From Cyathus striatus (lineage: Eukaryota; Basidiomycota; Agaricomycetes; Agaricales; Nidulariaceae), in assembly GCA_025738555.1 (NCBI GenBank), contig JAOVFP010000005.1, positions 1-64,000 on the forward strand: 64,000 nucleotides of DNA, written 5' to 3'. Shown piece by piece: positions 16,503 to 63,290 of the stretch (positions are counted from its first letter, which is position 1; the number at the start of each line of letters is the position of its first letter). A program made the position numbers and the translations under genes. Under the pieces are notes generated by a model. That model was not told where the DNA came from. It worked only from the letters and a program-made list of their open reading frames with translations, and did no database searches.

Positions 16503-17803
16503 GGGCTACTAGATTTTGACATTGCCCGTATTTTTACGTTGCCAGTGAGGCAACGTCACGCAATGCCAGCAACGTCACGGCAACGCCAGGCAACGTCACA
16601 TCAGCCTGTGATCAATCACACCCTCGCTAATCAATTCTCCCGCCCTTCCCTTTGCATTTTCACACGCATATCACCATTGCCCGCCTCCCACTCATTATTT
16701 CCCACACCTCCGCTCTCACTTTTTATACTTTTATTACATTTCCCTTAATCAAAAACAGAGTCTACTATTTATAATACAACATATTATTACCTATTTCACC
16801 AAGGATGGAACATATTACAGTAGAAGATTATTTAAAACTGTCTCTGATTCACATGTTGAATAGCTTTATCCCCTTCATTAAATAGTGAAATATTGTTTAG
16901 TACATATATCATAATATATATTGGATAATGCAAAAATAATCGAAGAAAATGATAAAGAATTGACCTAGAAAATAAGACAATACTTGCTCACTGTTGAGCA
17001 TGATGACAAGTGTGATGTGTTGCCGCGGTGATGAGGAAGGGTACTTGATGGAGTGATAGATGGGATCAATATTGTGTACAAATATAAATGGGAAGCGGAG
17101 GGCGCGGGAAACATTGAACCTCCAGCAATGCCAAAGGCAATGTCAAGCAATGCCACAGCAATGTCATGGCAATGCCATTCAGCAACATCACAGCAACGTC
17201 ATGCAACGTCACAGCAATGCCAGGCAACGTCCGAGCAATGCCAGCAATGCCAAGCGACATCAAATCTTGGATTGGCAACGTCAATTCTCAAATGGCAACG
17301 CCAGGCAACGTCAAAATCCTATTTTCAACAATTTCTACAACTGGTATAAAAACGAGTAGAGTCCATTTATCTCTACCAAATATTTACTTTTATTTCTATA
17401 TATCATGTATTTACAACATACAAGCTGTCTAGAGTAGAAATGTTGTGTACAAAGAAAAAAAATACTTATTTTCAACTTATTTCACTGTGAGATTGTAAGT
17501 TATACCCTGTTATACATGGCTCATATTTCTCATTAAGTGCTAATATATATTATATGAATGTAAGGTACATTTATCTTGTGAACTCCTACTAATTTATTGT
17601 ATTTATTACTAACTAAGCGTGTACACAAGTGGGGCTCAAACACAAGACCTCAGCAAGCAACACCACTGCAATGCCAAGCAATGCCAAGCAATGCCAAGCA
17701 ATGCCAAAATTAAATCGGCAACGCCAGGCAACATCAATGCAATGCCTGGCAACGTCAATTTGGGCAATGTCAAAAACTGGGCAACATCAAAATCTGTAGG
17801 CCC
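16503..17803 (+). mobile_element. Element A: 1301-bp MULE-type TIR element with amplified TIR word
   Basis: The termini are inverted repeats of 25 bp: left GGGCTACTAGATTTTGACAT, right (complement) GGGCCTACAGATTTTGATGT. A perfect 9-bp target duplication CTCCCAATA lies at 16494-16502 and 17804-17812. A 9-bp duplication is the signature of Mutator-like elements. Near both ends, and again at 17110-17330 and 17640-17760, the word gcaa(c/t)g(t/c)ca is tandemly amplified; it is the same word as in the TIR (gacattgccc). The centre (about 16625-17110) is a copy of module X, found elsewhere in other termini. No transposase is encoded. Confidence 0.9.
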
Positions 17804-17812
17804 CTCCCAATA

Positions 17813-19005
17813 TGCTTCTCCTACTTCCTTCTTTATGTGAGAGACTTTGATTTGAGTAGGAATGGGGGTCTTGAATTGTTTTTGAACGCAAGTTTGACAC
17901 GAGTTGAACGTAAGTCTTTCGTGGAGAGTTCAGTGTAGGCGTTTGGTGCTAACTAGTAACAAGAGCAAATAACTGATGTTCAGCTGTTGGCACAGTCTCA
18001 ACTAAGTCTTTGCCCACCAACTCAAGTTGGTACTGCCCAACCACTCTGCCCTTCCCGCTGCACTCCCCGGCCTTGCCAGTCCAAGAATCTGTACATTCTC
18101 ACATGTAACGATGGTATCATGTGTTAATGTTCCTGCTTGAACTCAAGGAACTAGGTTCCTCATAGTCGAGACAGTTGACCATACGGCACCCACTGTGACA
18201 AAGCACAACTTGTGCATGAAGTACGTGTGTCCCGCAGCATACAGGTGGCCTAGATATTTTTGCTCACAATACCAAACGCTACACCATTGAAAGCTCAGAC
18301 ATTCCTACACAGAATGAGAGCATGAGGTTGAGATGATAGGGAGATCTACATCTGATGGAGTGTTAGGCAGACCGCATACGTCCTCACATCCTCATACCCA
18401 TCTTTTCACTTACTCTCAATTTCAACAAAGACTCTACATTCGTCTCAAATCCCCTCCTCTCACTATCGCAACTCAATTACTACGACACCTTCATGTGCTA
18501 GAATCCAGCACGCACTGGCACATTCATGCTCTTTGGCCATGCACTCCATTTCACCTCGTCAGAAACACCTTCAATCTCGATTTTTTGTGCCATGTGGCAC
18601 CCATCCTCCTGTAGCTACCCTACTGGGCCATATATTGACAGGGAGTTGAGGTAGTCGCCCTTTGCCAACATGGACATGCTGCTATTGCATAGCTTCTCCA
18701 GCTCAGAGGGAATATAACTCCCCTATATGTCATTCTTGCATCTTCTTCTCAACGAAGGATCTTCAATTACACTTTGTACCATACTGTATAATTCAGTATG
18801 GTAGTGTCGCATCCCTGATCCTCGATCTCACTAACAAACGATAACTGCAGAGATCCCATCCGAGTTAACTTCTTCAAGTTCTATCTCCTATGCTGGCACA
18901 GCACTGCAATGAATGATTAAGCATAGGTATAGGAAAGATAAAGTGTCCTTCATTCAGTCAATGAGCATTTAACATTCATAATAATATCAAACGAAACGAA
19001 CCAAT
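17813..19005. other. About 1.2 kb without a recognisable gene
   Basis: Several short ORFs (for example 18333-18614) show no family features. I see no transposon ends. Confidence 0.3.
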
Positions 19006-19130
19006 GGTGTCGCACGAAAGCTGGGTTTGACTCCGAGACACAGATTCCGGCATTCGTGATTGAGCAATTGGATTTTTGTTCTCGTTTTGCAGACTTAATG
19101 TAAGGTCTTTATGTATGTCATAATAATTGA
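19006..19130 (+). repeat. tRNA-Asp 3' half with SINE-like tail
   Basis: The segment gtcgcacgaaagctgggtttg followed by actccgaga corresponds to the 3' half of the tRNA at 16.0 kb. It is followed by the same type of tail (gttctcgttttgcagactta, then ctttatgtatgtca). The 5' half is absent, as in a 5'-truncated retroposed copy. Confidence 0.55.
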
Positions 19131-19422
19131 ATGTTCTAGTTGAAGGATTAGAGAAAGTAGCAGTTTATAGTAATTATGATGGTACCTGAGCTAAGTCTTG
19201 TGAAGAAAACCATGCCCCAACCTCCAAACCATGCAACTGCTCTCCAATAGTAGACGTGGAATCCCTTGCTGCAAGTGCAGGACTAGATAACCCAGACCTC
19301 GATCCAACTCCCACAGATGATATAATAGGTGATGGACACAGAGAAGGCAGAATAAAGTCATTGTTGTCAGAGGATATAGATGAGTCCATTAACAAAGATA
19401 TCAATCGGAGCTGGTCCAGATG
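19131..19422 (-). other. Short unassigned ORF region
   Basis: A minus-strand ORF (19437-19174) runs into the left end of the CACTA-like MITE, so it cannot be an intact native gene. Its Ser-rich translation is not recognised. Confidence 0.25.
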
Positions 19423-19425
19423 ATG

Positions 19426-19822
19426 CACCTCAGACAAGGGTGGATCGGATCACTGTAAATATGGTACAACCCGATTTACTTAAAAATTAGAATAGTTATT
19501 AAAATATGTTATCTGACCGATGTGTGAGCAAATCTAAAATATGTGCAAGAATAGGAAAACTGACCAATCCATGCAACATATTTACAATAAGATCTGTGAC
19601 CTCATCTGTTCCTAGGCCAATCGGAAAATTTTCGGAGGCTCGGTTCACATTGCACACAGGTAAAATCAGCACGAAACAATTGGAATAATAAGCAGATGTA
19701 TTACCCAATTTAGAATTTTCTAATGCATCTGACACATTACATATTTTATGGCATATTCTAATTGTTACAAAAATCGGGATGTACCATATTTACATGAACC
19801 TGATTTAGGCCTGTCTGAGGTG
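19426..19822. mobile_element. CACTA-like MITE copy 1 (397 bp)
   Basis: The left end CACCTCAGACAAGGG and right end (complement) CACCTCAGACAGGCC form the inverted repeat. A second inner pair surrounds the motif tgtaaatatggtacaaccc / gatgtaccatatttaca. The 3-bp target duplication is ATG (19423-19425 and 19823-19825). CAC termini with 3-bp duplications fit the CACTA superfamily, to which the Plavaka transposase seen at 1-2.8 kb is related. It is homologous end to end with 42013-42409 and 55878-56271. Confidence 0.9.
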
Positions 19823-19883
19823 ATGGTACATACGAAAGCCTGCTGCCAATCCAAAATTTGAAAATTGCACTGTGCTGCACCAG

Positions 19884-21194
19884 GGCTACTAGATTTTGAC
19901 GTTGCCCAGATTTTGATGTTGCCAGTGAGGCAATGTCAAATCTCGCGTGGCAATGTCACGCAACGCCAGGCAACGTCACAGGCAACGCCAATGCAGTGCA
20001 AGGCCCAAGAATGCGTTGATGCCTAAATAAAAAAATCATAAGCAAGTCTGCTGAACATCTGTTCGACCTGGGTGTTCTAAGGTGTTGAGAAAGGGGGAGA
20101 ATATTTTCACTGAATTCAGAGGAGTAGTGGATACATGGATTTTAAATAAAATTTAAATAAAGAGAGTACCTAATGAGGAATAGTTGAATAAAGCGGAAAT
20201 TAATAGTGTTGAGGTTGTAGATTATTGAAAGAAAAAGGGAAAGTTGGAAACATAAAGCATACCAATGAATTGAAAGAAAATTTGTAAGATAAAAACTTCA
20301 GGAGAGGGACTTGGGGTGGTGACATGGCCTTTGGTAAAGCAAATTATTGTATTCAGCGGGTCTTGGTAGTGTGAAATACCAACAATCTTGAGTTACTCTT
20401 GAGTAATTGCAGCATTGAGGCGATGTACAAGTGTGTCTGTGTTGGAGGGAGAAAGTGAGAGAATGCGTGAACAGTGCATCGGCATGTACATTAGCTGATT
20501 ACATAATGAAAATAATGTTCGCCCTCCAGCAATGTCAAAGGCAACATCAAGCAATGTCACAGGCAACGTCCAGCAATGTCATGGCAATGCCATCCAGCAA
20601 TATCACAGCAATGTCACAGCAACATCAGGCAGCGTCTGGCAACGTCTGGCAACGCCAGCAACATCAAGCAACATCACAGCAACGTCAATTCTCAGATTGG
20701 CAACACCAGGCAATGTCAGGCAATGTCACAGGCAACGTCAAAATCCTTATTTTCAGATTTCTGTAACATGTATAAAAATGAGTAGAGTGCATGTATCTCT
20801 ACCAATCTCTATTTGTTATTAGTATATATCATAAATTTACAAAACTACTAGCCAGCTAAAATCTAAATAGTATTAGAAATATTGTACACAAGTGACAAAA
20901 TATATGTATTTCACTGTGGGAATGTAAGTATTATTTGTTATACCCTCTCCCCACCCCCCCATCCAGTGCTAATATATATTATTAAAATGAAAGAACATCC
21001 ATCTTATGCAATCCTACTTATTTACTGTATTTATTACTAACTACACAACTGGGACTTGAACACAGGACCTCAGCACTAATATATGTAGCAACATCAAAAA
21101 TAAATAAGCAACATCACACAATGTCACACGCAACGCCAGGCAATGTCACTTTTGGCAATATCAAATCTAGGGCAACGTCAAAATCTGTAGGCCC
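19884..21194 (+). mobile_element. Element B: 1311-bp MULE-type element, same termini as A, different cargo
   Basis: The terminal inverted repeats match element A (GGGCTACTAGATTTTGACGT at the left). A perfect 9-bp target duplication GCTGCACCA lies at 19875-19883 and 21195-21203. Subterminal gcaa(c/t)gtca arrays lie at 19910-20000, 20520-20750 and 21085-21180. The right halves of A and B are homologous (tataaaa(a/c)gagtagagt followed by atttatctctacc-type sequence). The central cargo (about 20010-20520) is unrelated to that of A. It is a reversed, diverged copy of the MITE that interrupts the membrane gene at 12.5 kb. No transposase is encoded. Confidence 0.9.
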
Positions 21195-21203
21195 GCTGCA
21201 CCA

Positions 21204-22340
21204 TATGTATACCCTAATCAGGCGAGCTGGGGCCCGGCTATGGTGTGATTCCCCCTCCTTCATCCTTAATTTTATGTTTGATCCATGTGATACTTCCATT
21301 GCTGATGTGGTATATCCAACACTACCTTGAGTGAGAAAGGACTGTCACAGAGAAGCTGTGAGAGTGTGTGAGGCTGATGTTGCCATGGGAAAATGAACTG
21401 AATTCACTGGCCATTCCCAATGATCCGAGCCATTGATTCACATGATGGTTTGGTTCTATCCAGTGCCGATTCGGCACTAGTAACATCTTCAACATACAGT
21501 TTGCGACAGGCAAACCCCACTAATTTTTTGAGTGAACTTGAGCGATTTTTTCGGCAATGACAAATAAGTTTTAGACTCCGAAAACCGTCAGAATAGCATA
21601 GTTAGGATGTATTAGTTAAGATTCCACGAGCTGATTTTTCAATTTTCAATTTTCTCAAGGACATTGGCCTTTTGCGGAGGGGGATGAGGAGAATCTTAGT
21701 GATCGCCTTAGTGGTAGGGTTAGAGAAGTGGTTATATTTAGGAACAGCATCCTAGTTGTTGGTAAACATCTGGTTGTGTTTTGTTTACATGATAAGTACT
21801 ATGGAAGTTTGTTAGCCAGGAGCCTAGGTCGAGTTCAGAGGGGTAGACATACCGATTAGAATGACATGCAGAGCCCTGTAGGAAGAAAAAATGATAGTGT
21901 GGGTTCATGAGAAGAGGCACACTGTGTTGGCAGGTGGGAAAGGAGGCCAAGAGTGTGAAGTCGCATTCATTGACGGAGTTCCAGTTGCTGCAAACATTTT
22001 AGGTGTGACATGTGACTGGATTGGTTGGGTTGGAAGAAGGGGGGATGTATACCAATGAGAAAGTTGTATCTTTCCCAGTGGAGAAGTAGATCCAGTGGGC
22101 ACAGGGGATAAAAAGATGGTAACTGTCTGTTGTACATAGGCAGTTGGGTTGCATCAGATGTGCTAGATGTGCTATGCAAAGGTTCTTTTGCCATTCGAAA
22201 CTAACATTGGCAAATACAGTAGGGACTAATGAAAGTAAGTAACTTCGATTTTGCCCTTGGGACAATGTGTAACACAGTACTTCAAGACATGACATGATAG
22301 CAGTAAAGCAGAAGGTAATTGGTATACACTGACGACATTA
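21204..22340. other. About 1.1 kb without a recognisable gene
   Basis: The segment about 21960-22110 (ggattggttgggttggaaga, then aggggggatgtataccaatg) is repeated in diverged form at about 46470-46560. Other short ORFs have no support. Confidence 0.35.
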
Positions 22341-23373
22341 TACATCGTGGTATGTCATATAAATTCTGCGATCCTCAAGGTGAATTTTTATTGTAGGTTT
22401 CTTGTGTACTTCATTCTCATCCGATTATTGTGTTGCTTGATTGATGTCAACCTCTCCACTCATTGTTTCCCACCCCCCCACTTATCATTTATGATGGATG
22501 CCAGCCCTCCCGCTCATCATTTCCCACGCCTCTGCTTATCATGTTCAATTCCTACTCACTGCTTCCAGCCCCTCTCTCTCAAAAATTCCCACGGTATTTC
22601 CTTCACCAAATACTCGCCCTCAACATTTCCCACGCATTTTGGCATTGCTCATCATCGCTTATGATTTCCCACACTTCATCATTTCATCAATTTGTCATTT
22701 CCCGCCCTCCGCTTTCATTTTCCCACGCACATATTGCTAGTTTATTGCACTTTCTCTTAAATTTATAATCATTTGAAAGTACCTATGCTTCATGAATTAT
22801 AATTGTAGCATTCATTGTACAGAATTATTAATTATTCCACAGTAAAAATTTAAATTATTTCATATTTTCATAAGATTACCCTTTCATATAGCACCTAAAG
22901 TATAGTCTACTGTATAGAGAAGAATATATAACAGATATTACAAAAAGATTCAAGAGAAAGTAGTAAATACTGAGCTAAAAATGCGAAATTACTTGCTCGC
23001 TGTTGAGCATGATGATGAGGAAGGGTGCCCATCAACAAATCACCCATCAATTATGTGCAGCGGCCTTGAGGAAGTGAGTTTGATGCCATTGATGGATGCC
23101 ATTGGCAACTGCAAACATGGACAAAGATGAGAAGAAGCGTGGGAAATCTTGAACAAGGCAGAGTGTTGAAGGAAACAGTGGACAGGGGGCGGGACAGAGG
23201 GAAGATAGGGATAATGGTGCAGAGTACAAGTGTTTATTGAACACTTACCTTTATGGACTTATTTTCTTTTTAGTAACTTGAATGTGATTTGAATTGTCAC
23301 TCAAACTGTCACTTGAGTGCAACTCGAATTCACTCGAACAAAATTGTCGTCGACTGGAATTCTTGTAAGCCCC
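22341..23373 (+). repeat. Module X copy plus the right end of a D-type element
   Basis: The left part holds repeated (t)ttcccac(g)cctc words and the right part their complement (gcgtgggaaa, ggggcgggaca), so the module is a foldback with minisatellite arms. The core contains acttgctcgctgttgagcat and gatgatgaggaagggtgccc, shared with 32.6 kb, 16.99 kb and, reversed, 62.0 kb. It ends in an array of cacttgagtgcaactcg words and the terminus GGAATTCTTGTAAGCCC (to about 23373), the same right end as element D. The left terminus was not found. Confidence 0.75.
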
Positions 23374-23399
23374 TATAAAATGACTGCATTATTGTTGAG

Positions 23400-25610
23400 T
23401 CACGTGACGAGTTTTAAGTAATACTTATGTATTTAGAATAGAAATTCCAAATATTATAATAATACTCAAATCCCAAGGTGGAAGTTCAGTAAGTTCGAGG
23501 GGCGCAATGATTTCTATTCCAAATTTAGAACAAGTTATTTTTAGATCGAATGAACTCAGGCTATTTTCGGTACGCGTCAAGGTATTCAGATTTCAAAGTA
23601 TTCAGATATCAATTCAAACAAGAAACTCTGTACGTATTTCTCAATGTCTAAATGTCTCGTAAATATGTCTGATTCTCGTCTGTATCTTGTCTGTACCGCC
23701 CTATCCGTGGGGGGAAGAATGCCTGGCAGTTCCTGCCTTATTTCTTCCCTCTTCCCCTACTATATACATTTTCTACCCTACTGACTTACAAATTGCGTAG
23801 TAATAAAATCTTATCTGTTCTCCGGTATTTCCCCGGTTCATTTGTAAGGTAACGCGTTGTCAACGCTGTAGAGCAGGTGTTCCGCCTGCATGGTGGAATC
23901 AATGTATTAACGAGTTCTGCAGACGCGTCTTAGTCACGTGACTAACTACGTAATCGAACCTCGAATGCGTACACGTCGCCAACTATCGTTCACCTCCGTC
24001 TGCACAATACCCCCTCGACGCTCTCGAAATCGGACCGACTTCTCCTCAACGCCGGACGAACTATCATGCTAACGAGCAACCAAAGCACTCGGTTATGGAC
24101 ACGCGAAGCTAGGGACAGCGGAACTCGCTCACAAACTGAAGATCTCGACATTGGCAAAACATATCACCTTCGTTTATCCAACATTGCTACATGTTCTACT
24201 TCTCCTCATATCACATTTCTCTTCTCTTCACATTCTAGATACAAACCTCCCTTGCTAGTTCTCCTTGAAACACTTGTCTAGTCACTCTTGGCCTTAGGAA
24301 AATTTATCCGCTCTTTTAGGTACAATTCTCTACCATTTTTCTTATATAAACGGTGTATCTACCTCTTTAGTAATTCAGTGAACTTCACCCCATCGTTCAA
24401 GCTCTCTCTCTGCCTCTCTTTTCATGTCTCCTTGTCGTCTCTATCGTTCTCTATCGTCTTCTCTCGCTCTCGGCTCTTACAGCAAGTTCACTCACTCAGA
24501 AACACTCAAGAACTTCGTCTCGAAGTTCTGACTCTTGTTGCGTCGTCGTACTTCTCGTTTACGTCGCTAAGTCCCTCCCTTTCTCAACCTTAGAACCTTA
24601 ACGTTGGACGGACGCGCCAACGGCTCGCATTCCTTTGATTAGGAACCTTCAACCGCCCATTTCCCTCTTCAACGCCCAGACGGCGGTCAGCCAATTGTGT
24701 GCATGACCCAACGCGCTCCCATTCTGCAACGCGCGCTCGTTTGAGCGTTCTAAATCGGGTAATCAGCCGATGCGGCAGCGCCAGCTGCTCGTATCAATTT
24801 CATTTACTTCGGCCTAACGGATCGGTTCCCCACTTCCGCGTGAACTCCTGACCGTTGGGGTACTGTCCCTACCTGTATGGATGCAACGGTCACGCATAAC
24901 ACTGACCCCGTTGTGTTGCTAAAACAGCATTTGGTCACGCATAACGGTGGCCCCGTTGCTTAGCAGGATGCGTGACAGGTTGATGAATAGATCAAAAAGT
25001 AAGCTTTTTACCCTAAAATTCCCCCGTCAGGTTGCTAATTCTGTAAATTGTCACGCAAAATCTGGCACTCGTTGCTTAGCTCGCGCCAAATTTTTGTGTC
25101 ACGCTTCAAAACCCCGTTGCATCCATACAGGTAGGGACAGTACTTGCTCTCTTTCCTTTCTTGCTTCCCTTCCCCCTTTCTCGCGCTCTCCCTCTCCCAG
25201 TCTCGCTGTCTCGTTGTCTTATTGTCTCAGTCCCTCATCGTCGTCACTCAAGCTCGCTAATCTCGTGTCTCGTGTCTCATGGTCTGGGTTGCTTACGGTC
25301 TTGGTAAGTTCGTGTTTTGTCTGGATCCATTACTTTGTAACTCGTGCTGACTTTGTCATGGTCATATAGTCTTTTCTGGGCATCGTAATACTCATGTTTA
25401 GGCTACAACGTCATTTGTAAAAGGTAAAGTATTGTGTATTTATTTGTTTTAAAGGGTGTAAAACCAGTACTGAGGTGGAGTCGTGTTTTAATAGGTGTAT
25501 TTGTTTTTATTCCCTTAGTGATTTATGGGAGGTGGCGCGGGAACTCAGCCCCTCCCCGCTGTTTCCTCACTCTACATGCCCGGTACTGGTATCTCGAAAT
25601 CGAGATATAA
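23400..25610 (+). repeat. Repeat module Y, copy 1 (contains nested insertions)
   Basis: The start and end align with 30530-31650. Shared words include gggggaagaatgcctg, actatatac and aagttcgaggg near the left, and tactgaggtggagt, ttatgggaggtggc / ttatgggaggcaac and ctcagcccctccc / ctcagtccctccc near the right. This copy is about 1 kb longer. The extra DNA includes a dyad gagcaggtgttccgcctgc at 23873-23892 and the TA-flanked MITE at 24863-25140. Short ORFs (24066-24593, 24947-25369) fall in it, but I see no conserved protein. Whether Y is a retroelement remnant or a non-coding unit is open. Confidence 0.6.
24863..25140. mobile_element. 278-bp Tc1/mariner-type MITE
   Basis: The 27-bp termini are near-perfect inverted repeats beginning CTGTCCCTACCTGTATGGAT and continuing into gcaacggt. 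TA lies on each side (24861-24862 and 25141-25142). The interior contains several gtcacgca(t/a)aa and ccgttgc words related to the end of the TIR. The size, TA duplication and termini fit a Stowaway-like element mobilised by a Tc1/mariner transposase. Confidence 0.85.
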
Positions 25611-30361: not shown

Positions 30362-30370
30362 CACGAAATT

Positions 30371-32996
30371 GGGCCTACAGGAATTCCAGTTGAGTGTCAC
30401 TCAAATGTTACTCAAACATTACTCAAATTGTCACTTGAAGTATTACTCGACTTTCACTCGATTTTTGCACACTTAAGTATCTTGCTTAATTTCAGTGACC
30501 TAACTACATGATTTATGTACTTGTTTGCTACTCCAGTTGATAAATAGCTATCTTACTATTGATGTACTTAGCACGCGAGTTTAGAACACTTTAATTATAC
30601 TTAGAATAGTTTTACTTATTCCGATAATTTATATTCTAAGTTTCCTGTGCACGAAGATTTTGTAAGTTCGAGGGCGCGTGGATTTCAATTCTTTCAAAGT
30701 CAAACTAAATTTAGAATATGATCGTTCTATTTTTAAAACATGGTGGGACTTTGATGATTTAATTATGGCTGTCAAGCTTTAATTCAGATCGAGTATAATT
30801 CAACAGTTCAGGTGCAATTCAATTCGGTACGTCAAAACTATATACTATTTCTGGTACTTCTGTCTGATACACTGCCCTGTCTGTGGGGGGGAAGAATGCC
30901 TGTGCAGTTCCTGGTGTTTCTTTCCCCCCTCACTCCTCTATATACAATTGCTCATGCACTTATTTACAGTTCTCTATCTACAGGATTTTCTAATCATATG
31001 GCATCTTTATTCTAGGTCTGTGGTGAATCAGCACGGAGCATCGGCCCATGCATATGCAGCCAATCGTATGGCACTCACATGGTCCTTATCTATTGTGTTA
31101 TTGCAACAGTGCACGCGCACGCGGGCACTTCCATCAGCGCCTTCCTAATTCGGAAACCGTGGTGTTGATGTGTGATCTATCTCCGTTTCACTTGTCCTGC
31201 CACTCTTCTTGATAGCTCTACATTCCGTCATCGCTGCACCTGCTTCTTTCATGCATTATACACCACATGTGATTGAATTTCGGTTGTATCAGTATCCTAC
31301 TTTCCGTGGTATACAGATACCGGGTCTAAAGTTCAAGTACGTTGTCATAGTATTGTTTCCATTCTTTTTCCTTTGTTCTGAGTACATGTCATTTGGGTTT
31401 TCTAGGGTCTCGTCTGTTACTTAGGATCAACTGTAGCACGTCGGTTTTATGAATAAAATAAGTATAGTATTTGTTAAAGGTTTTTAATTTGGTTACTGAG
31501 GTGGAGTATTGTGTATAATAGTTTTTATAGGCTTTTATATCCCTTGATAGTTTATGGGAGGCAACACGGGACCTCAGTCCCTCCCCTTGGTGTCTGACTC
31601 GACGCCTCAGTCCAGGATTTCACAAATTGAGATGTAGAAATGAAATAAAGTATGTGCTTTCAGTTTTCCTGTGTATCACTATTATGTACCTAATGAACAA
31701 TATATTAAACTGAAAAACTAAGTAAAATGCACAAGAAATAAGCTAGTAATGATATAATATTTTTCTCACTGTTGCATATGTCACTCATATGTCACTCAAA
31801 TTTCACTCAAATTTTGAATTGTCACTTGATTGTAACTTGAATGCTACTTGAACACTACTAGAATTTTTACTTGAGTGAAATTGTTGTCACTCGAAAAAAT
31901 ATCACTTGAATCTTACTTGAATGTAACTTGAATGCTACTTGAATGCAACTTGAATCTTACTTGAATGCAACTCAACCTTCACTTGAATTTTCACTTGAAT
32001 GTAACTTGATTGTCACATGAATTTACTAACTTAACTCACTCAATTTTATGTCAATAAATTTAATTGTACTTCTTGTGTACTTCACTCTCATTTGCCCTCC
32101 CACTCATTGTTTCCCATGCCTCCACTTATTGTATTCAATTCCCACTCACCACTTCCCACCCCTCCTCTCTCAAAATTCCCACAGTATTTCCTTCACCAAA
32201 TACTTGCCCTTAACATTTCCCATGCATTTTCGCATTGCCTGCTGTCAATTATGATTTCCCATGCTTCATCATTTCATCAATTTGTCATGTCCCACCCTCC
32301 GCTTTCATCTTCCCATGCACATATTGCTAATTTATTGCACTTTCTCTTAAATTTATAATCATTCAAAAGTATCTATGCTTCATGAATTATAATTGTAGCA
32401 TTCATTGTACAAAAGTATTAATTATTCCACAGTAAAAAATTGAATAATTCCGCATTTTAATAAGATTACCTTTTCATACAACATCTAAGGTACAGTCTAA
32501 TGTATAAAGAAGAGGATATAACAGATATTACAAAAAGATTCAAGAGAAAATAGTAAATATTGAGCTAGAAAATGCGAAATTACTTGCTCGCTGTTGAGCA
32601 TGATGATGAGGAAGGGTGCCCATCAACAGATCACCCATCAATTATATGTGGCGGCCTTGAGGATGTGAGTTTGATGCCATTGATGGATGTCAATGACAGC
32701 AGTTGCAAACATGGACAAAGGTGAGAAGAAGCATGTGAAAAATTGAACAAGGTGGAATGTTGAAGGAAAAAGCAGGCGGGGGGTGGGACAGTGGGGAGAC
32801 AGTGATAGTAATGTAGAGTTTAAGTATTTATTAAACACTCACCTATACAGACTTATTTTTTTAATAACTTGAATGTGATTTGAATTGTTACTTGAATTGT
32901 CACTTGAGTGCAACTCAAATGCTACTTGATTGCAACTCAAATGCAACTCAAACTCACTTGAACAAAATTGTTATCAACTGGAATTCTTGTAAGCCC
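30371..32996 (+). mobile_element. Element D: 2.6-kb GGGC-ended TIR element carrying modules Y and X
   Basis: The left end GGGCCTACAGGAATTCCAGT and the complement of the right end (GGGCTTACAAGAATTCCAGT) form the TIR. The flanks CACGAAATT (30362-30370) and CACAGAATC (32997-33005) match at 6 of 9 positions, a possible decayed 9-bp duplication. Inside both ends the words gtcactcaaa and acttgaatg are amplified (30390-30470, 31780-32040 and 32870-32970, spacing about 10-11 bp), matching the TIR tail ttgagtgtcactcaaatg. The interior carries module Y (30530-31650) and module X (32090-32840). No transposase is seen. Confidence 0.75.
30530..31650 (+). repeat. Repeat module Y, copy 2
   Basis: This is homologous to both ends of 23400-25610 but shorter, without the nested MITE. 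The order here is Y then X, whereas near 22.3-25.6 kb it is X then Y. Short ORFs are not conserved between the copies. Confidence 0.65.
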
Positions 32997-37604: not shown

Positions 37605-38160
37605 GGGCACATAGAAAATTTTATGCACACACAAAAGTGAGTGTGGTTGAGTGTGCCATACTCAAAGCCAAATTTTCACACTCAATAAGTGAGCATGTCA
37701 TGCTCAAGGTATTTATATTAGTTCTAAATGACCCATTTGTGAGTCAAACAGAATGTAAATCAAATGTACATACTAGTTTTGTATGACTGTGTCTTATTGT
37801 AACTGTGAGTGAGGTTTTTAATCAAGATATGAAGTCAAATGTTGAAGAATAATATTTATATTTCATGCTCATATTACACTCAAGATGTTATTTCACACAC
37901 ACAGGGTCAAGAATTCACACTCAGGGTTGACATCTCATGCACAGGGTCTGAGTTTTCACACTCAAGATCTATCAACTCATACTCAAAGTCTTTATTTCAT
38001 GCTCACTAAGAAATTAAGTGCTACATTTATATTTTGACTTCACTTACATGTGGGAGGAAAAGTAAGTACTGTTAAGTACAATAAACATGGCCACACTTCA
38101 ATGTGGGTGTGAATATTGATACTTATACATGAGCATGAGTATGTATTCACTTCACACTCC
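37605..38160 (+). mobile_element. Truncated relative of element C
   Basis: The left end GGGCACATAGAAAATTTTAT continues gcacacacaaaagtgagtgt, matching the left TIR of element C at 48951. Internal words (gggtctgagttttcacactc, gacttcacttacatgtggga) match 49250-49430. The large tandem array and the right terminus are missing. Confidence 0.75.
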
Positions 38161-42409: not shown

Positions 42410-42412
42410 TAA

Positions 42413-48950: not shown

Positions 48951-51118
48951 GGGCACATAGAAAATTCCGGGCACACACAAAAGTGAGTGTGATTGAGTGT
49001 GTCATGCTCAAGGTATTTATTTTAGCTCTAAATGGCCCATTTATGGGTCAAAAGAGCGTAAATCAAATGTACATACTAGTGTTGTATGGCTGTTTCATAT
49101 TGTGAATGTGAGTGATGTTTCTAATCAAGATATGAAGTCAAATCTTGAAGAATAATATTTATACTTCACACTCATGTTCACACTCGAGGTGTGAGCATGG
49201 ATTGAATGTGCACATACACATCACACTCAAGATTTTACTTCACACTCAGGGTCAACATCTCATGCACAGGGTCCATACATTCATGCACAGGGTCTGAGTT
49301 TTCACACTCAAGGTCATCAACTCACACTCAAGGTCTGTCAACTCACACTCAAAGTTTTTACTTCATGCTCACAAAAAAATTATATGTTACATTTATATTT
49401 TGGCTTCACTTACATGTGGGAGGAAAAGTAAGTTGCAAGTGTAATATATGTGAGCATGAATAGGAATACCAATCACACTCAGACATTGAGCATGAGTTTA
49501 TTACTTGTGAGTGTGAATATGAATACCAATTATGCTCATGCTCAAGTTAAAGGACATTGAGTGTGAGTGTAATATTTGTGAGCATGAATAGGAATACCAA
49601 TCACATTCATGCTCAAGTTAAAGGACATTGAGCATGAGTGTAATACTTGTGAGTGTGAATAGGAATACCACACTCATGCTCAAGTTAAAGGACATTGAGT
49701 GTGAGTGTAATACTTGTGAGCATGAATAAGAATACCAATTATACTCATGCTCAAGTTGAATGCAAGTGTAATATTTGTGAGCATGAGTAAGAATACTAAT
49801 CACGCTCACACTCAAGTTAAAGGACATTGAGTGTGAGTGTAATACTTGTGAGCATGAATATGAATACCACACTCACACTCAAGTTAAATGACATTTAGCA
49901 TGAGTGTAATACTTGTGAGCATGAATAGGAATACCACACTCACGCTCAAGTTAAAGGATATTTAGTGTGAGTGTAATACTTGTGAGCATGAATATGAATA
50001 CCACACTCACACTCAAGTAAAATGACATTTAGCATGAGTGTAATACTTGTGAGCATGAATAGGAATACCACACTCACGCTCAAGTTAAAGGATATTTAGT
50101 GTGAGTGTAATACTTGTGAGCATGAATAGGAATACCAATTATACTCACACTCAAGTTGAATGCAAGTGTAATATTTGTGAGCATGAGTAAGAATACCAAT
50201 CACACTCATGCTCAAGTGAAATATAAGTGTAATATTTGTGAGCATGAATAAAAATGCCAATCACACTCACACTCAAGTTAAAGGACATTGAGTGCAAGTG
50301 TAAATAAGTATTATAAATGTGATAGAATACCTATCATGCTCATGCTCAAATCAAAGGGCATTGAGCATGAGTGTAAATATCATACTAACATGCAGTTATA
50401 CAATGCAAATATGTGTGATAGGTAGTAATCTATCCTGTATTGCTCCCTGCTTCGTTGTGAATTTCCCTGCTTTGTTATTAAGCCCCCTTCCTTGTTCTGA
50501 AGTTCCCTACATCGCTGTAAAGCCCCATTCTTTGTTTTGAATTTCCCATGGTCTCTGCTTCACTGTGAATCCCCCTGCCTTGTTCTGAATTTTCCTGCTT
50601 CATTGTAAAGCTTCCTGTAAATTTCTGAGCCCCCTGCTTCATTATAAACTTCCCCTGTTTCTACTGTTCAATATATACCATTCTCTAGCTCTATAAATTT
50701 TTAACTGTTAGTCTGAATTACTACTACACTCTCTGAGTCATTTTTTTAACTTGTAGATCATATGTACACTCTCTGAATCATTTATATACACTGTAAGTCA
50801 TATCTAAACACTCTGGATCATTGGTATACATTTTAAATCAATATACACTCATAAAGAAGACAATAACAATCAAATATATATAAAACCCACTGGTGTTCTT
50901 CAATTATTACATTACAGTGCTTAGTATATACTAAATTGTATTAAAAACATGCTTTACTATGCCAATTATTCAGTATGTAGTTGATATAAGACAGCCAGTT
51001 GGCTCACACTCATATAAGGATTATTCACACACAGGGTTGAATTTTCATGCTCAATAGGTGAGCATGCATGCTCAACTCACACTCACTTTTGTGCATGCCT
51101 GGAATTTTCTTGCTGCCC
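48951..51118 (+). mobile_element. Element C: 2.2-kb GGGC-ended TIR element with a satellite
   Basis: The left terminus GGGCACATAGAAAATTCC and the complement of the right terminus (GGGCAGCAAGAAAATTCC) begin a TIR of about 47 bp. It continues ggca..cacaaaagtgagtgtga. The flanks TTACTATCT (48942-48950) and TTACTACCC (51119-51127) match at 7 of 9 positions, consistent with a decayed 9-bp MULE-type duplication. The inner part of the TIR (gagtgtgagtg) is the word amplified in the array at 49430-50390. The right third (50400-51050) is unrelated and partly pyrimidine-rich. No transposase is present. Partial relatives start at 37605 and 59641. Confidence 0.85.
49430..50390 (+). repeat. Hairpin-forming satellite inside element C, unit about 58-71 bp
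   Basis: About 14 degenerate units of the form gagtgtgagtgtaatacttg - tgagcatgaataggaatacc - aatcacactcatgctcaagtt - aaaggacatt. Each unit contains an inverse pair, cttgtgagcatga and tcatgctcaag, so each can fold separately. Shorter units lack aaaggacatt. Variation alternates between gagtgtga and gagcatga forms. Confidence 0.85.
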
Positions 51119-51127
51119 TTACTACCC

Positions 51128-53480: not shown

Positions 53481-53629
53481 GTTCAGTAAGTCCCCCATTA
53501 CTAGTTATATATTTAAAGTGAAATTAAAGTGAAAAGAGTGATATAAATTATGAAAATTCACACAAAGATTATGAGAAAAATAAATTTATTGCATTTAACT
53601 TACATTTTCTATTTATTTTGTAGTATATA

Positions 53630-55874: not shown

Positions 55875-55877
55875 ACA

Positions 55878-56271: not shown

Positions 56272-56306
56272 ACAGTAACTATAGCTTCTCTCAGAATATC
56301 TTTGTT

Positions 56307-57032
56307 ATGATAACAATCGATCAGATAGTATCCAAATTACTTAGTATTGGAGTTTTGAGCATCCAACAGCCTGGCGCCATCGATCGATATACCATGATGG
56401 AGGAGCTAACTCGGAACATTCTTTGTACCGATGAACTGGGATCTGACAAAAAGGATTGGGGTGCTTATAAATATTGTTCAGGCCTTTGTTTTAATCCATA
56501 TGCACCCTTGGGTAAATTGAACGAGGTAAATCGGCAGAAAGAGAGCAACAAGCGGGCAAAAGAAAGCCATAAAGAGGCAGTAATCATCGAGACAGGAAAG
56601 AACCTTATTGTTGACAGATTCATGAGTGATACCCTGGGAGAGAAAGAACTTAACCGGCAGTTTGATTATCATAGAGCAGAAGAGAACAACTTGAAGAAGC
56701 TGGTTTTAACAAATGGTGAGAACGAATCAATTCCTTTTAAGTCTCACATGCGGAGCCAAGAAATCCGGCGAGAAGCATTGAAGAATGCAGTAGAGAGATA
56801 CCTTGTCAGACAGAGTAACAGAAATGAAGTTGCTGTTGCAGCAATTGGTGAGCCTGAACAGATAAATAACGATGACATCTTCTATGAATCAGATTACTGG
56901 ATCATTTCAACCGATTGTTCGGTCACGCGTCACACCCTGTCTCTGAACAGAACAATTTTGAGAAATGTCACGCGTCCCAAAGAGCATCGAACAAAGGTTC
57001 AGAGAAACAAAAAATCGTTTTTCCATTATTAG
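56307..57032 (+). CDS. Unrecognised 241-residue ORF
   Basis: The ATG at 56307 opens one of the longest ORFs in the window. The protein is hydrophilic and charged, with no membrane segment: KKDWGAYKYCSGLCFNPYAP, then a Lys/Glu-rich region (NRQKESNKRAKESHKEAVII, LVLTNGENESIPFKSHMRSQ) that may be helical, and a basic C-terminus. I recognise no family. The first 25 codons lie in a segment repeated at about 28490-28610, so the true start may be a later Met (the MM of DRYTMMEEL). It could be a transposon-encoded accessory protein or a native gene truncated by the neighbouring MITE. Confidence 0.4.
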   Translation: MITIDQIVSKLLSIGVLSIQQPGAIDRYTMMEELTRNILCTDELGSDKKDWGAYKYCSGLCFNPYAPLGKLNEVNRQKESNKRAKESHKEAVIIETGKNLIVDRFMSDTLGEKELNRQFDYHRAEENNLKKLVLTNGENESIPFKSHMRSQEIRREALKNAVERYLVRQSNRNEVAVAAIGEPEQINNDDIFYESDYWIISTDCSVTRHTLSLNRTILRNVTRPKEHRTKVQRNKKSFFHY

Positions 57033-59640
57033 ATGTATGTACAGTATTTCTAATTTTCCTTGCAAGTTTCTGTTGTGTACATTGTGTTTTAAATTTTTTT
57101 TTCTCCCTCAACCGAAGTTCTAGAGGAGTTTAAGTAAGGCCAAATTTTGTCTTTAATGTAATATTAGGAGCATCCATTGTTATAACATTGTTATTTTTAT
57201 TGGTATTGTGTGTCAATTATAGATATACTAATTTTTGTCCTCACAAGTCCGATAGTTTGATTTTAAAGAGCATGAACAAATTTGAATGATGTCACGCACT
57301 AAAATGGGCCATGAACAGAACAATGAACTGATATTTTTGGTCACACAAAATCTCAGTGAACAATTGGTCAAAATGATCCAGTATTATGATGACACTGCTT
57401 AATTACTTTATAATCCTTACTTGCATTCTAATGTACATGTTAATAAACTAAATAAGTGTATCAAACTGTCGAATTGTAACTGCAGAGACCTCAGAATGGA
57501 GGAGAGACGATTAAATAGGCTGTGGATGACACTGGATATGCAATCGACGTGATGTTGTGATGTGTTCATAATTTTCGTGTTTTGGAGTGGCTGTGCACTT
57601 AGTCAGCAGCCGCGTGGAGATTGCGACTCCCCATTAGCTAATGACGAATCAATCGTTCACAATCACTTGTGAACAACGGATGCGATTCTGCTGGTAACTT
57701 CGTCGGTTGTCGAGCTTATTGCAGACAATGACAATTCTCCTCGTCATTCCTCCATCTACGACACACACCCTTGATGATTCACTCACCATACCAAAACGCA
57801 ATGCCGCCGAGTCAGAGTCACAGTCCTGGAACGAGCACACGCCTAGCTCGATGCCCTCCTCCTGTACATCTAATTTTAGATAAGTCGTCTCCTATCTCCA
57901 CGTAGCCTTATCCGACCAACCTATCCATTAGCTGTTAGATGTCTTCGAACATGGGCGGTGACATCGAAACTTTCCCCGTACCAATGCTGTTGCCCACCAA
58001 TCCAGACCCTCACTGTATCTCCCACGAATGCTCAACAGCACAGCTGGAGCATGACGTCTCCTCCGTGAACACGAATACCGGATATTCTGGCCCTTTTGGC
58101 ATCCTACGCGATCGCCGCCTAAGTCCCCTGTTCCGAATGAAGCAGTATAGCGAGCGCGTCCCTCAGTACGCAGCCCCTCTATTGTCATTCCTCCCTCCTG
58201 AAACACAGCCCTAACTGCTGTCCTCACACACTCTCACATCCTTTCCCACTTCCGCGTCACGCACAACAGCACTCTACATTTCAAAACATCTCTTGTTCAT
58301 ATAATACACGGACTTCATCTCCTCGGCTCCTGCAACCTGTCGCCTAGCCTTTATCGATATCTTATCCTCAACAACAACATCCATGGTCACGTAAGATACC
58401 ACACCGACCATACGTACTGTGACATAGATCGCCTTGTCACGTGTTTGCGCCCGGATGTGGAGTATCTGAGCAGGTACTAGGGACATTGTGGACGGTGGTA
58501 GACGATATCGGTGGCGAGTGGTAGGAGGGTTTGCTTTAGTGCATATGACGATGAACTACGCAGTCGCACCCTTAGTCGAATACCAAGCGAAATAGTAAGT
58601 GTGTCCCCCCACGTCGTATTCTACCCATGTTCCCCCAAACAAGAAAGCACAGCGCTCTCCAATTTCTCTCCCTTCTCAACACAGGTTGAAGACAGGTGAA
58701 CTAACATCCTCAGTCTAGCATCGTCCCCATCGCCTCCCTCAGATCCACTTCTCACATCTCCATGGCCACCCCCCTCCCCCCACAACAACGCTAATGTCAT
58801 ACAATGTCCTCATTGATGTCCCATTCCACTATCTTCTCCCTAACCCCTCAACATAGCCCTATCCTCTTCAATACGTGAAGAAGGCGTGTATATCTATGTT
58901 TCAGCAACGCGAATGCGTCTGTGCAAATTACTCCCAGAGCTTACTAGGATACATAAACGTGAAGTACTTCCAGCTCTTCTCGTAGTTATTATTCTACTCA
59001 GTGTCGCTTTAATGCTCTTACGAATTGCTTGCTAAGTTACTATAGCACACTCGGGGCACGATTGAGCTATATATCTGGGTTCATTCACTTTGTAATTAAG
59101 CTGTTATATATCAGAATATTTCTGATCAACAGACGGTTATAGTTACAACATTCTGGAAACAGTGTTGTTCACCTGACAAATGGCTTGCATAACATGGGAC
59201 TTTGCAAGCTGTAAGTACTGTAGAAATCCTACTCACTCGCTTCCCCATCCGAACAACATTAGAGATATCAACATTGGCCGCACCGACGACATGAGCCTCA
59301 ACAGGGGGAAAGATTCCCCAGTGCCACACGTAAACTTCTCCTTCGAAAGCTAATTCAATTAAAGTTATTCACCATTCATGACCTAATAGTGAACGTAGGG
59401 AAACTAATGGCGCACTCCAAGAAATGAAGTACCCGAAGGAGTGGGCGAGTTGGCCGTCGCCATTGAGCTGAGGAGGGGTAGTGGGGATGGTGTATACGTT
59501 TAGAGGGGAGGTGTCGAGGGGTTATACGCAATAATGCTCATGGCACCTGAAATTGGCGCGGATGTGAGTATGCAGCATAATAGGTATTAGGAAGAAGCAC
59601 GAATATGCCAGAGCGCATTGGTCCCGTAGTCGTCGTAGCG
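57033..59640. other. About 2.6 kb without an assigned gene
   Basis: 57710-58090 is the second copy of the repeat at 51.3-51.8 kb. 58180-58860 is C/T-rich like 40.3-41.1 kb. Short ORFs on both strands have no family features. Confidence 0.35.
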
Positions 59641-59990
59641 GGGCACCAAGAAAATTCCGTGCACGCTCAATTATGAGCGTGAGTTGAGCGTGCACGTTCA
59701 GAGTCTGAGCGTAATAATGGCGACCCTGAGCGTGAAGTATTGTATCTTGAGCGTGAAGAAATGGGCTGCTAACATTTCGAGTTCCTGTCGAGTTTTTCGA
59801 GTTATCAGTTCCACTTTTGAGCTCGCTTACCTTTTTCGAGTCGAAGTTAAGTTACCTCAAGTGGCTATTTTTATATTTCGAGTGGACTTAAGTTCCTCAC
59901 TTTTTTTTTTTTGGAAAAGTCGAGTTCCCTTGAGTAAACTTAAGTTCACCACATCAGGAAAAACCGATCCGGCTGCCAAGCCACACGCCA
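59641..59990 (+). mobile_element. Two stacked GGGC element ends
   Basis: At 59641, GGGCACCAAGAAAATTCCGT followed by gcacgctcaattatgagcgt matches the left TIR of element C. At 59763, GGGCTGCTAACATTTCGAGT starts a different terminus, followed by amplified cgagttcc / cgagt words to 59960. Neither right end could be located, so these are truncated or nested copies. Confidence 0.65.
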
Positions 59991-61550
59991 AGCTCGGTAG
60001 CCAATGTCGATCATCCGCCAAGTAGTACAGCTCTGTACAGATGGCATAGCATGGTATATCATGGGTTGAAGGTGTGTATACTAATATAGCATTGTCATGC
60101 TTTTCTATAGTGTACTATAGGCTACAGAATTTGAGGTGAAGCATGCATAGATATAGATATATTGTGCATTAATCTACTTATCTCTGCATACATTAACCAT
60201 AAAATGGTATGGACTATGTAAGAGCTTTCATAATGTTTGCTTTACCCAGATGAGAATATATTATAGGATATTGTGTAGACCTCTGTCTAACATTGCTTTA
60301 TGGTAGATACATGAATAACTATCTTTAAATCTTGCATGTATGCCTATAATTAATAATAATATGTGCTATGATATGTAGAGTATATGCCATTATAAGTAAG
60401 GGAAGTATATGCAATGGTATTCGCATATATCTCACAAGCATGAGGGAATTGCGAGGGGCGGTGAGGGATGGTGAAGGCCGGACTTCGCATACACATGATG
60501 CGGTGATCGGGATTCGGCTTGTAGTTGTTTATATCACGTGATGTTGTTTGTTTAGTCGTTCCGGCTTCTTCCCTTTCAAAGATTTTCACGTTGCCGTCTT
60601 TTTTCTCTATCTCCTCCTTCCCACTAACCTGTTCAGCATGCCAGCTACAAAGTAACCCATCCCGCCTTCTACCTTTTACCATGCCTGTTATCTATTGCTC
60701 ATCACTGCAGAAGGTGGTCTTATGTATTTGGTAAGTTGTGATTATGACCTTCCCACTGCTCCTAACGATTACTTGTACTACAGTCATGTCTCTGATTCCG
60801 ATTTTTCTCATTCTTGACTTGTAAGGTTTTATCCACTTCATGTAAAACCTTTACTGACTTTAGCTTGCAGGTATCCTGTCCCACCTTTTGTCGCTGCACC
60901 TGGGAACAATCATTTCGTATTGTTGACGAGTCACGTTATCACTTGGTTAGGCTTGGGATATTTGAACAGTTTCTGGTTTCATAGGTCTAACTAAGGTAAG
61001 ACCATGTTATATGTTTGCTACTCAAAGTACTCTGCTAACACAGGTGTCTTAGATATGAGTGAATGATGGATGATTTGGGAGATTTGGGAGCAGCCATATA
61101 TATTTGTTATAAGTGTGGGTGTTGGACACATGAGATATATGTCGTATGAAGGTGGCTGGTTGTGGTAGGTATGGTATGGTACATATTGTGATAAGAGATT
61201 GTTTAATTCATATAATATATATGTTTCCCTATTCCTACCACACCTGATGTTACGCTGTAAGTATAATATTGTTTGAATTAATTGGAATGGATGTATCTAT
61301 TAGAGTAGAAGATCTATTGTCTACATACTCCCTGTAGCTGCAGTAGATGGTGTTTCTATATTTCTATAGTTCTTTTTGAATAGTGCTATCAAGGTTGTGC
61401 TTCTCCTATGTTGAGCTATGTTGAGCTATGGTACAATGGTAAGAGTCTATATGAATCTATCAAAAGGAGACTTTCCCATGTGAGATATTGCTGCTAGCCG
61501 AGCTATGTAGCTCCACATTGCAATGTTTTTTTTCCTGATGCACTTATTAT
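59991..61550 (+). other. About 1.5 kb; weak gene signal at 60.6-60.9 kb
   Basis: A short ORF from ATG 60681 (MPVIYCSSLQKVVLCIW) is followed by a good donor gtaagttg at 60731 and an acceptor actacag near 60783, but the spliced frame stops at once. It could be a non-coding transcript or a decayed first exon. The rest is AT-rich. Confidence 0.25.
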
Positions 61551-61745
61551 TTTTTTGAGTGAAAGTTGAGTTCCTTTGAGTCAAGTTAAGTTACTCACTC
61601 GTGTTTTTTGAGTGAAAGTCAAGTTCCCTCAAGCCAAGTAGAGGGGCTGCTAACATTTTGAGCTCCTGTTAACTTTTTTGAATGGACTTAAGTTCCTCAC
61701 TAAGTTTTTTTTGTGAAAGTTGAGTTCCGAATATTCAAATTTCAA
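61551..61745 (+). repeat. GAGTTCC minisatellite and a GGGC terminus
   Basis: The words aagttgagttcc(t/c)ttgagtc repeat, and at 61644 GGGCTGCTAACATTTTGAGC matches the terminus at 59763. The array therefore surrounds the start of another copy of that element type. Confidence 0.65.
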
Positions 61746-61929
61746 AAGTTCAAGTGTACAGTAAGTATACACTAATCACTACTATAACTACTGCTCTGTT
61801 CCCATACCCCCGCCCACCTAATGTTTTCTACAACTCTGCTCAACAATTCCCATGCACACTGCCCACCTTTATTTACACACATTTGCATGTGTGTTGTACT
61901 ATCCATCACTTACATTTACTCAAATATTT

Positions 61930-62980
61930 ATCACCACGATGTCAACATATGAACACACCATGGGATTGTTGATGGGCATGCTTCCTAGTCATCATCCTTA
62001 ACAGTGAGCAAGTCTTTTCTTAAATTTTTAGCTCAGTTCTTGCTCTTTTTCTTTCAATCTTTTTGCATCATTTAATGTAAGTTGTTATACACATAGTAGA
62101 CCATATTATATTAAGTAATAATGTAAATAAACATATAAAAAATGCGAGTTACATATGTATTTAGTACTTTATAATAATATGTTCCATGCTTTGTACAGTA
62201 GATTATGGGATTTGTTGGAAAAGTGTATTAATTATGTGGGAAAGTAAGAGCGGAGGCATGGGAAACTATGACTAGGAGGGTGGGAGATAATGAACAGAGG
62301 TCAAAATGATAAATGAAAGCGTGGGAAATTTCGAGCGGGGACACGGACAGCAGTGAACAACAGAAGCGGAGGCGTGGGAAGTAGAAGCGGACAGCAATGA
62401 GCATCAGAAGTGAAAAGCAGAGGCGTGGGAAAATATGGGCGGAAGGGCGGGAAAGTGAAAAGAGGTCGGAATGATCAACGAAAGCGTGGGAAAATGTTAG
62501 GCGGGGGTGCGGACAGCAGTGAACAGCAGAAGCGGAGGTGTGGGAAACTATGAGTGGGAGGGCGGGAATGATGAAATGTGCAGGAAATTGCAAGCAGATT
62601 AGAGGAGAAGCAAAAGCGTGGGAAGTGCTGAGCAGGAAGTGGATGGAGTGAACAGCAGAATAATCAAAAGCATGGGAAATCATGAGTGGGAGTGTGGGAT
62701 AGTATGAGTAGAGATCAGAATGATAGCAGAAGTGTGGAAAATTATGAGCAGAGGTGCAGGTGACAATGAGCAGAGCATGGGAAACATTGAGCGTGAAAGT
62801 ATATAGGTACAATATGTTAAGCAGAAGTGTGGGAAATTATGAGTGGAGGTGCAGGCAACAATGAGAATGTGCAACTAATAGGAAATGAATAAACATTGAA
62901 TTATAGGCATGGGAAACAGCGAGCGGGGGGGTGGGAAACAACACAAACTACTGTATAATTATTGTAAGATATTCATTATA
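61930..62980 (-). repeat. Module X in reverse with an amplified arm (minisatellite)
   Basis: 61965-62040 is the reverse complement of the module X core (gttgatgggcatgcttcc, aacagtgagcaagtctttt). 62230-62960 is an array of about 28-31-bp units, gcggaggcgtgggaaa(c)tatgag(c/t)ggg, roughly 20 copies. It is the expanded GTGGGAA arm of module X. A 194-codon minus-strand ORF through it is repeat translation, not a gene. Confidence 0.75.
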
Positions 62981-62989
62981 CAACTTGCT

Positions 62990-63290
62990 TATTTTTTGAG
63001 TAAAAGTTAAGTTCCCTTGAGTAAAGTTAAGTTTCTCACTTATTTTTTTGAGTGAAAGTTAAGTTCCATTGAGTCAAGTTGAGTTCCTCACTTATTTTTT
63101 TTCGAGTAAAAGTTAAGTTCCATCAAACTCCTTGCTTAAGCTAAATTCAAGTGTCAGTCAAGTTCCCATTGAGTTACCTTTGAGTGGTAAATGACAACTC
63201 AACTCCACTTGAATTTGAGTTGAGTTCCATTTGAGTTCCAGTTGAGTTCCAGTTAACTTCCTACTTTAAGTTCCTCAAATTCCATTACAA
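62990..63290 (+). repeat. AAGTTCC / GAGTTCC minisatellite
   Basis: Degenerate repeats of agtgaaagttaagttcc and attgagtcaagttgagttcc, ending in gagttccagttgagttcc. They match the arrays at 59.8 and 61.6 kb, and the same words reappear at 63950-64000 as the window ends. Confidence 0.75.

Follow-up and report, generated by a model that had tools for sequence, protein, structure and literature searches.

Family-specific word clusters in GGGC-ended transposable elements of Cyathus striatus

Why do short words from the ends of some transposable elements recur as arrays inside them? The question is raised by the 64 kb at the start of contig C5 in the fungus Cyathus striatus (JAOVFP010000005.1, positions 1 to 64,000; hereafter the window), part of a genome of 107.45 Mb in 24 contigs (labelled C1, C2, C5 etc., with extracted loci labelled L001 etc.), where the elements A, B, C and D all run from GGGC to GCCC and hold tandem arrays. 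The original prediction was that such elements form one class that amplifies a word of its own terminal inverted repeat (TIR) into a satellite, either as extra transposase binding sites or as a by-product of replication slippage or abortive transposition. A genome-wide search extends the class to four families, A/B, C, D and E. We somewhat favour the reading that they are non-autonomous DNA transposons of the Mutator-like element (MULE) type, in which the clusters are amplified sites for a family-specific, trans-acting protein. Since no autonomous copy with these termini was seen, we infer both the superfamily and the protein.

Element A is complete (16503..17803, + strand, 1301 bp), with the tips GGGCTACTAGATTTTGAC and GGGCCTACAGATTTTGAT and the target site duplication (TSD) CTCCCAATA, perfect over 9 bp, at 16494-16502 and 17804-17812. 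Its left cluster (about 16517..16598, +) consists of an inverted outermost word and then five forward words of the type GCAACGYCA, its middle cluster (about 17123..17313, +) of 14 forward words followed by TATAAAA at 17345, and in the right cluster (about 17657..17796, +) forward words reach the right tip. Element B, which represents a second subfamily of the A family, is likewise complete (19883..21194, +, 1312 bp; TSD GCTGCACCA, 9/9) and has clusters at about 19899-19989, 20528-20745 and 21087-21185 (+), with TATAAAA at 20771. A script that paired GGGC with GCCC in the window and scored tip match and TSD returned A, B, C, D and two crosses between A and B ends, and the four stand as first described, with perfect 9-bp TSDs in A and B and decayed ones in C (7/9) and D (6/9).

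Across the genome, tip patterns with up to 2 mismatches (3 for E) matched 315 times for A, 399 for C, 118 for D and 192 for E, and reversed-pattern controls gave 0 each. About 30 A, 23 D and 25 C candidate pairs were marked from the tips, and sequences were taken for 20 A, 9 D (the shorter ones, except L091), 2 C and 3 E loci. Three pairs lay wholly inside the 30 C loci; L044 (TSD 9/9) and L067 (3/9) were kept, and the C pair L047 (2/9) was excluded. The resulting set of 40 elements (22 A, 10 D, 5 C and 3 E, including the A, C and D copies of the window) is biased towards intact copies, because selection mostly took good tips that faced each other in pairs. Their TSDs were perfect over 9 bp in 27 cases and over 10 bp in 4, had one mismatch in 6 and were worse in 3, namely window C, window D and L067; in family E the TSD is perfect over 9 bp in L100 and L102 and over 10 bp in L101. 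TIRs are present, with tips inverted over about 20 bp or more, and the tips of the families (about 15-20 bp) are alike in outline. One class of GGGC-ended elements with 9-10-bp TSDs is thereby borne out for all four families. Merlin and IS1595 elements have TSDs of 8-9 bp, and this assignment is contradicted by the four perfect 10-bp TSDs and by 0 genome matches to PF12762 (DDE_Tnp_IS1595). The 9-10-bp TSDs of A, C, D and E fall within the 8-11 bp given for MULEs (PMC6446971).

Each family has its own word, 7-9 bp long in A, D and E. With CpG decay allowed for, the 22 A interiors hold the A word 556 times (mean of five dinucleotide shuffles, 5.0), and the 5 C, 10 D and 3 E elements hold it 0 times; own-family counts against shuffle means were 338 vs 2.4 for the C word, 186 vs 8.0 for the D word and at least 42 vs 0.8 for the E word. 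Every word is most frequent in its own family, as expected from the claim that the amplified word differs by family. A test that chooses no word beforehand points the same way: of the top ten interior 7-mers, the outer 50 bp of the same element contain a mean of 4.55 (A), 4.40 (C), 5.70 (D) and 4.00 (E), and the outer 50 bp of a random other family 0.20 to 0.47, which links the array word to its own terminus and shows family specificity, not a terminus richer in words than the rest of the element. That the word always comes from the TIR is too strong: the link to the terminus stands, but the D word begins just inside the inverted part without lying in it, and A-type words without tips occur at L001, L002 and L003. 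The array words first read from the window are also real, but acttgaatg, gagtgtgagtg and gcaatgtca look like CpG-decayed forms, the less decayed copies reading ACTCGAATG, GAGCGTG and GCAACGTCA, respectively. The less decayed words of all four families hold a CpG (4/4), which is suggestive only. Along the window, the observed/expected ratio of CpG in 4-kb steps ranges from 0.02 to 0.89; such swings are expected if repeats are methylated and then mutate, and the CpG loss suggests repeat methylation.

In A, D and E the words form three clusters, left, middle and right, and in C the word stands in a long array and near the ends. The middle zone of A holds 9 to 19 words in each of 22 copies. The majorities of the left, middle and right clusters face one way in 32 of 35 elements (A 19/22, D 10/10, E 3/3). 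By orientation, A words split 92:57 on the left, where the minority are outermost inverted copies, 285:0 in the middle and 166:0 on the right; the corresponding counts are 61:13, 161:20 and 75:5 in D and 9:0, 46:3 and 15:3 in E, and C interiors carry the word on both strands (154 vs 184). The term satellite fits C, where a 61-67-bp unit fills a long array (49482 to about 50376 in the window copy), better than A, D and E, whose clusters are short and, in A and D, mostly near their own ends. Triple A words number 580 in the genome (control 0), and the first 100 form 26 clusters, 20 of which have an A end with a perfect tip match no more than 5 kb away, the only kind of A end used for these distances (strictly 19, as the cluster at C1:1628315 lies outside its end). 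Paired D words number 325 (control 4), and the first 100 form 23 clusters, of which 15 lie close to a D end and another 5 close to an E end. This polarity bears on a Foldback interpretation, by which the arrays would be long inverted repeats whose folding back drives rearrangement. Subterminal arrays beside short tips and 8-10-bp TSDs are shared with Tm1, Tetris and Muta1 (PMC3169594, PMC4079207, PMC5225508), but apart from the few outermost words, A, D and E have direct left and right clusters, and C is mixed, with its word on both strands. For A, D and E the Foldback interpretation is largely refuted, and we hold it to be very improbable.

The families with three clusters are also related in their interiors. 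In a comparison of six sequences, A and E were 64% identical over 386 bp (expectation value 6e-27), A and D 75% over 104 bp (7e-15), and D and E 60% over 871 bp (2e-26); C gave no match to A, D or E at 1e-3 or below. A shared 31-bp core motif (TTGCTCACTGTTGAGCATGATGA...; up to 9 mismatches) was found in 15/22 A, 10/10 D, 3/3 E and 0/5 C elements. Its copies in the window lie in A (16984..17014, +, 5/31 mismatches), in a D fragment (22993..23023, +, 1 mismatch), in D (32584..32614, +, 1 mismatch) and in E (61981..62011, -, 4 mismatches), with a second, weaker copy in E (63716..63746, +, 8 mismatches). C was rejected as a relative of A, D and E, having no interior match and no core motif. In A, D and E alike, the shared stretch is flanked on both sides by clusters of the own family. 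As a homologous interior is bracketed by family-specific clusters, the word seems, judging from these alignments, to have been exchanged on either side of a conserved stretch. A CGAGT core is common to the D and E words, so the exchange between D and E may be smaller than that between A and either of them. Apart from the terminal word, the E interior holds a degenerate repeat around gcggaggcgtgggaaa (window 62228-62960), and similar words occur in A and D interiors.

Word spacing is regular as well. Forward A words (gaps up to 45 bp) lie 9-12 bp apart in 295 of 474 cases and 20-22 bp apart in 97, with peaks at 10-11 and 20-21 bp; the prevailing spacings are 10-12 bp in D (202/258), 21 bp in C (44/52) and 11 bp in E (16/31). 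A spacing of 10-11 bp is near the DNA helical repeat. The clusters might also be a neutral by-product, that is, functionless minisatellites that grew by slippage or abortive repair from a chance seed beside the tip and were copied along with the element. Copy number does vary among close copies, e.g. in the D copies L092 and L094, which are 97% identical, yet hold 37 vs 28 words; word CpGs in A decay like others, and other transposons, too, have tandem repeats close to their ends (PMC4079207, PMC3310237). However, slippage at one cluster leaves unexplained both the same-facing word in three clusters hundreds of bp apart and the different cluster words in families with a homologous interior, and spacings near 10-11 or 20-22 bp recur in all four families. 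We consider the by-product account unlikely.

In all 22 A copies, TATAAAA starts 39-51 bp past the point where the final word of the middle cluster begins (39 or 40 bp in 19/22; window sites 17345 in A and 20771 in B) and precedes a conserved block of about 30 bp. With TATAAAA as the alignment anchor, this block is alike in the two main A subfamilies, and their surroundings differ by about 30%. The near-fixed distance (22/22) and the likeness of the block between subfamilies that are about 70% identical there would suit a purely regulatory array, in which the words bind a transcription factor of host or element for the element's promoter, and transposition uses the tips alone. Against this, clusters lie at both ends too, the six longer A copies lack a clear coding frame, and the TATAAAA arrangement is missing from E (0/3) and, apart from one opposite-strand match, from the 10 D copies. 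A promoter link as a general rule was thus rejected, the arrangement occurring in A only, and a solely regulatory role appears improbable.

Amplification of binding sites fits better, because it covers the private word, its polarity, the three clusters and the replacement of the word, with slippage still needed to supply copies. Each word would be bound by a protein that an autonomous relative provides in trans, whether through the DNA-binding domain of the transposase itself or as a separate helper similar to the VANC proteins of Arabidopsis VANDAL elements. Many same-facing sites would raise the local protein concentration, so that a copy would be recognised only by its own family's protein, and since words differ between related families, they look like landing sites for a matching protein. 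Clusters would grow and shrink by slippage and unequal exchange, and a shift in protein specificity could carry a new word through all three clusters while the interior of A, D and E stays homologous. The middle cluster of A, just upstream of TATAAAA, could double as an upstream activating or anti-silencing site. Of the mechanisms first offered, binding-site amplification is thus favoured by the recurrence of one word in three clusters that lie apart and face alike; slippage accounts for changes in copy number, but not for a coordinated change of word.

Several observations weigh against this interpretation. The patterns are not fully private: the D pattern reaches 4.2/kb in C and 1.9/kb in E (9.1/kb in D), and the C pattern 1.5/kb in A (24.7/kb in C). 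Random 50-bp interior pairs beat the terminus in 4/5 C copies (means of 4.6 to 7.4 for the controls against 3 to 6 for the terminus) and also in window A and L102, and the 7-mer score is 0 in three A copies, L076, L079 and L081. Decayed forms of the A word dominate in L079; L076 and L081 are dominated by another tandem repeat, rich in AGTGTCA, whose top 7-mers have 30-54 copies. Six of the 26 A and 3 of the 23 D clusters have no end of the expected kind nearby among the A, D and E ends listed, and A-type words stand in 3-kb stretches without an A tip (20 in L001, 16 in L003 and four in L002). L001 (C1:1610510-1613527) and L003 (C4:2480458-2483475) are 92% identical over 1.76 kb and perhaps represent a different mobile element that acquired the array. 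The observed spacing would also result from duplication of a ~10.5-bp unit alone, and the TATAAAA arrangement does not extend beyond A. Moreover, in 7 A copies the fraction of intact CpGs was 0.75 in words vs 0.76 outside (p = 0.81), and in 8 D copies 0.69 vs 0.59 (p = 0.039). Word CpGs have thus decayed as much as others (A) or slightly less (D), so there is no clear sign of protection, which is unsupported in A and marginal in D.

The coding evidence belongs with these objections. An autonomous MULE with A, C, D or E termini, which the original prediction had envisaged, was not found in the searches with PF10551 and PF12762 or in the frames of nine longer copies. PF10551 gave 0 genome matches at default settings and two at an expectation value of 10, both under the cut-off, the better being L104 (C2:2204040-2204360; 25.5 bits vs a cut-off of 27.6). 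The MULE-like transposase domain of L104 is present at 13 genome loci, itself included, the other 12 being 50-91% identical to it; six lie in frames of 282-329 aa, two of these with a TGA inside the match. By eye, the 100 ends listed for each of the four families (A as far as C11, C as far as C6) are all about 19 kb or more away from the 13 loci. Up to six frames were read in each of the nine longer copies (L073, L074, L076, L079, L081, L086, L089, L090 and L091), and neither PF10551 match falls within them; Pfam was run on five of these frames and on 10 of 50 window frames. The six longer A copies showed no clear coding frame, their longest frames being 103-151 aa and some array-derived. L091 (C11:373805-380070) is a D element with a nested retroelement that carries reverse transcriptase and tyrosine recombinase frames and, in our reading of weak Pfam matches, looks DIRS-like. 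Among the best 120 of 636 matches to its recombinase frame, three carry an organism name, two from Cyathus striatus (80% over 67% of the query and 63% over 80%) and one from Athelia sp. (49%), in keeping with an agaricomycete host, for which a mobile gene is weak evidence; COX1 (PF00115) gave 0 matches. The A element L079 (C3:1718580-1722252) contains a helicase-like fragment at 1747-2106 (Pfam scores below the cut-off), which may be an insertion or a gene capture. One weak gag match came from the 10 window frames, in a gag-like frame of a long terminal repeat (LTR) retroelement at 4672-5175 (PF03732, 22.9 bits, below the cut-off of 24.1).

The window also holds decayed and broken members of the class. 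Element D (30371..32996, +), with a decayed TSD (6/9) and about 1.1 kb inserted at about 30568-31677, has clusters at about 30390-30465, 31775-32040 and 32855-32965 (+). The D fragment mentioned above (22451..23372, +) is a right-hand part that ends at the D right tip and is 88% identical to L092 over 893 bp; its left part was not found. Element C (48951..51118, +, 2168 bp) has the TSD TTACTATCT/TTACTACCC (7/9). Three further positions had been taken for ends of the class, and they stand as ends of two different families. The one at 59763 is the left end of E, the fourth family (59763..64000, +), of which the window holds the left end and most of the body, with about 1.6 kb inserted at 59953-61540; the right end, C5:64052, lies past the window. 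The other two are C-family left ends, one truncated (37605..38140, +; C homology stops at about 38140 and the window tip scan gave no partner end), the other interrupted by E (59641..59762, +). C-type words restart after C5:64052, with 8 matches to short C-word forms within 198 bp after E. Because C-family sequence lies on both sides of E, this E copy evidently sits inside a C element begun at 59641; no TSD was seen there. A fourth supposed end, at 61644..61668 (+), is an internal copy of the E tip, since the same feature occurs inside the intact E element L100.

How do these families compare with known systems? No agaricomycete elements of such kind appeared among the titles and abstract openings listed for open papers, a search that did not cover Repbase and subscription journals, where the families may be catalogued. 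Short subterminal repeats are ordinary in MULEs, as the Muta1-14 elements of Aedes aegypti show, which share a short tip motif, subterminal repeats, 8-9-bp TSDs and many non-autonomous copies with other interiors; 10/12 Muta families with long TIRs have subterminal tandem repeats of 9-15 bp (PMC5225508). Unlike in Muta, where the repeats lie in the inverted TIR, the clusters of A, D and E are direct and an extra one lies in the middle. Tm1 of root-knot nematodes has 7-bp asymmetric end motifs, variable copies of a mostly 14-bp unit and 9-bp TSDs, but its units lie in inverted TIRs and a transposase-bearing copy is known (PMC3169594). Rehavkus, whose transposase carries a PHD finger, combines a 9-bp TSD with a minisatellite before the 3' TIR, a combination also found here, but it is recorded from arthropods and annelids, and here clusters also lie on the left and in the middle and no transposase was seen (PMC6446971). 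In the Tetris foldback element of Drosophila virilis, internal tandem repeats share sequence with the end domain, TSDs are 8-10 bp and an autonomous copy was reportedly not found; however, its unit of about 220 bp lies inside the TIRs and has also grown into separate satellite-like arrays, whereas the A and D arrays lie mostly near the ends (PMC4079207). A further known case shares with the E tip at 61644 the extra internal copy of the terminus, but there a whole long TIR is duplicated and not a short word.

The VANDAL/VANC system of Arabidopsis resembles our families in its short, family-specific motif, dense and in one orientation in non-coding parts, in tandem arrays that expand, contract and diverge together, in related families with different motifs and in an unrelated element, AT9TSD1, that bears VANC6 motifs (PMC5735166, PMC10398659). 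VANC proteins bind the motif and remove methylation. That arrays of this kind can act as proposed is shown by VANC21, whose target motif is dense and uniformly oriented (PMC5735166). A dense, same-orientation family motif is found in A, D and E, and C has both orientations. VANDAL elements have degenerated TIRs, whereas clear inverted tips are present here, in a fungal instead of an Arabidopsis host; no VANC-like protein turned up, and no search by that name was made. Tentatively, and with considerable doubt, the families might represent a fungal counterpart of VANDAL/VANC of independent origin, in which a private word in three polar clusters is bound by a transposase or anti-silencing helper proper to that family, and new families arise when the word is replaced throughout the element and the core kept, so that word turnover isolates them. 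While subterminal repeats in MULEs are known already, three same-facing clusters and three homologous families that differ in their word are less usual. If the words are protein sites, A, D and E would offer a natural series for a transposon and a DNA-binding protein changing specificity together.

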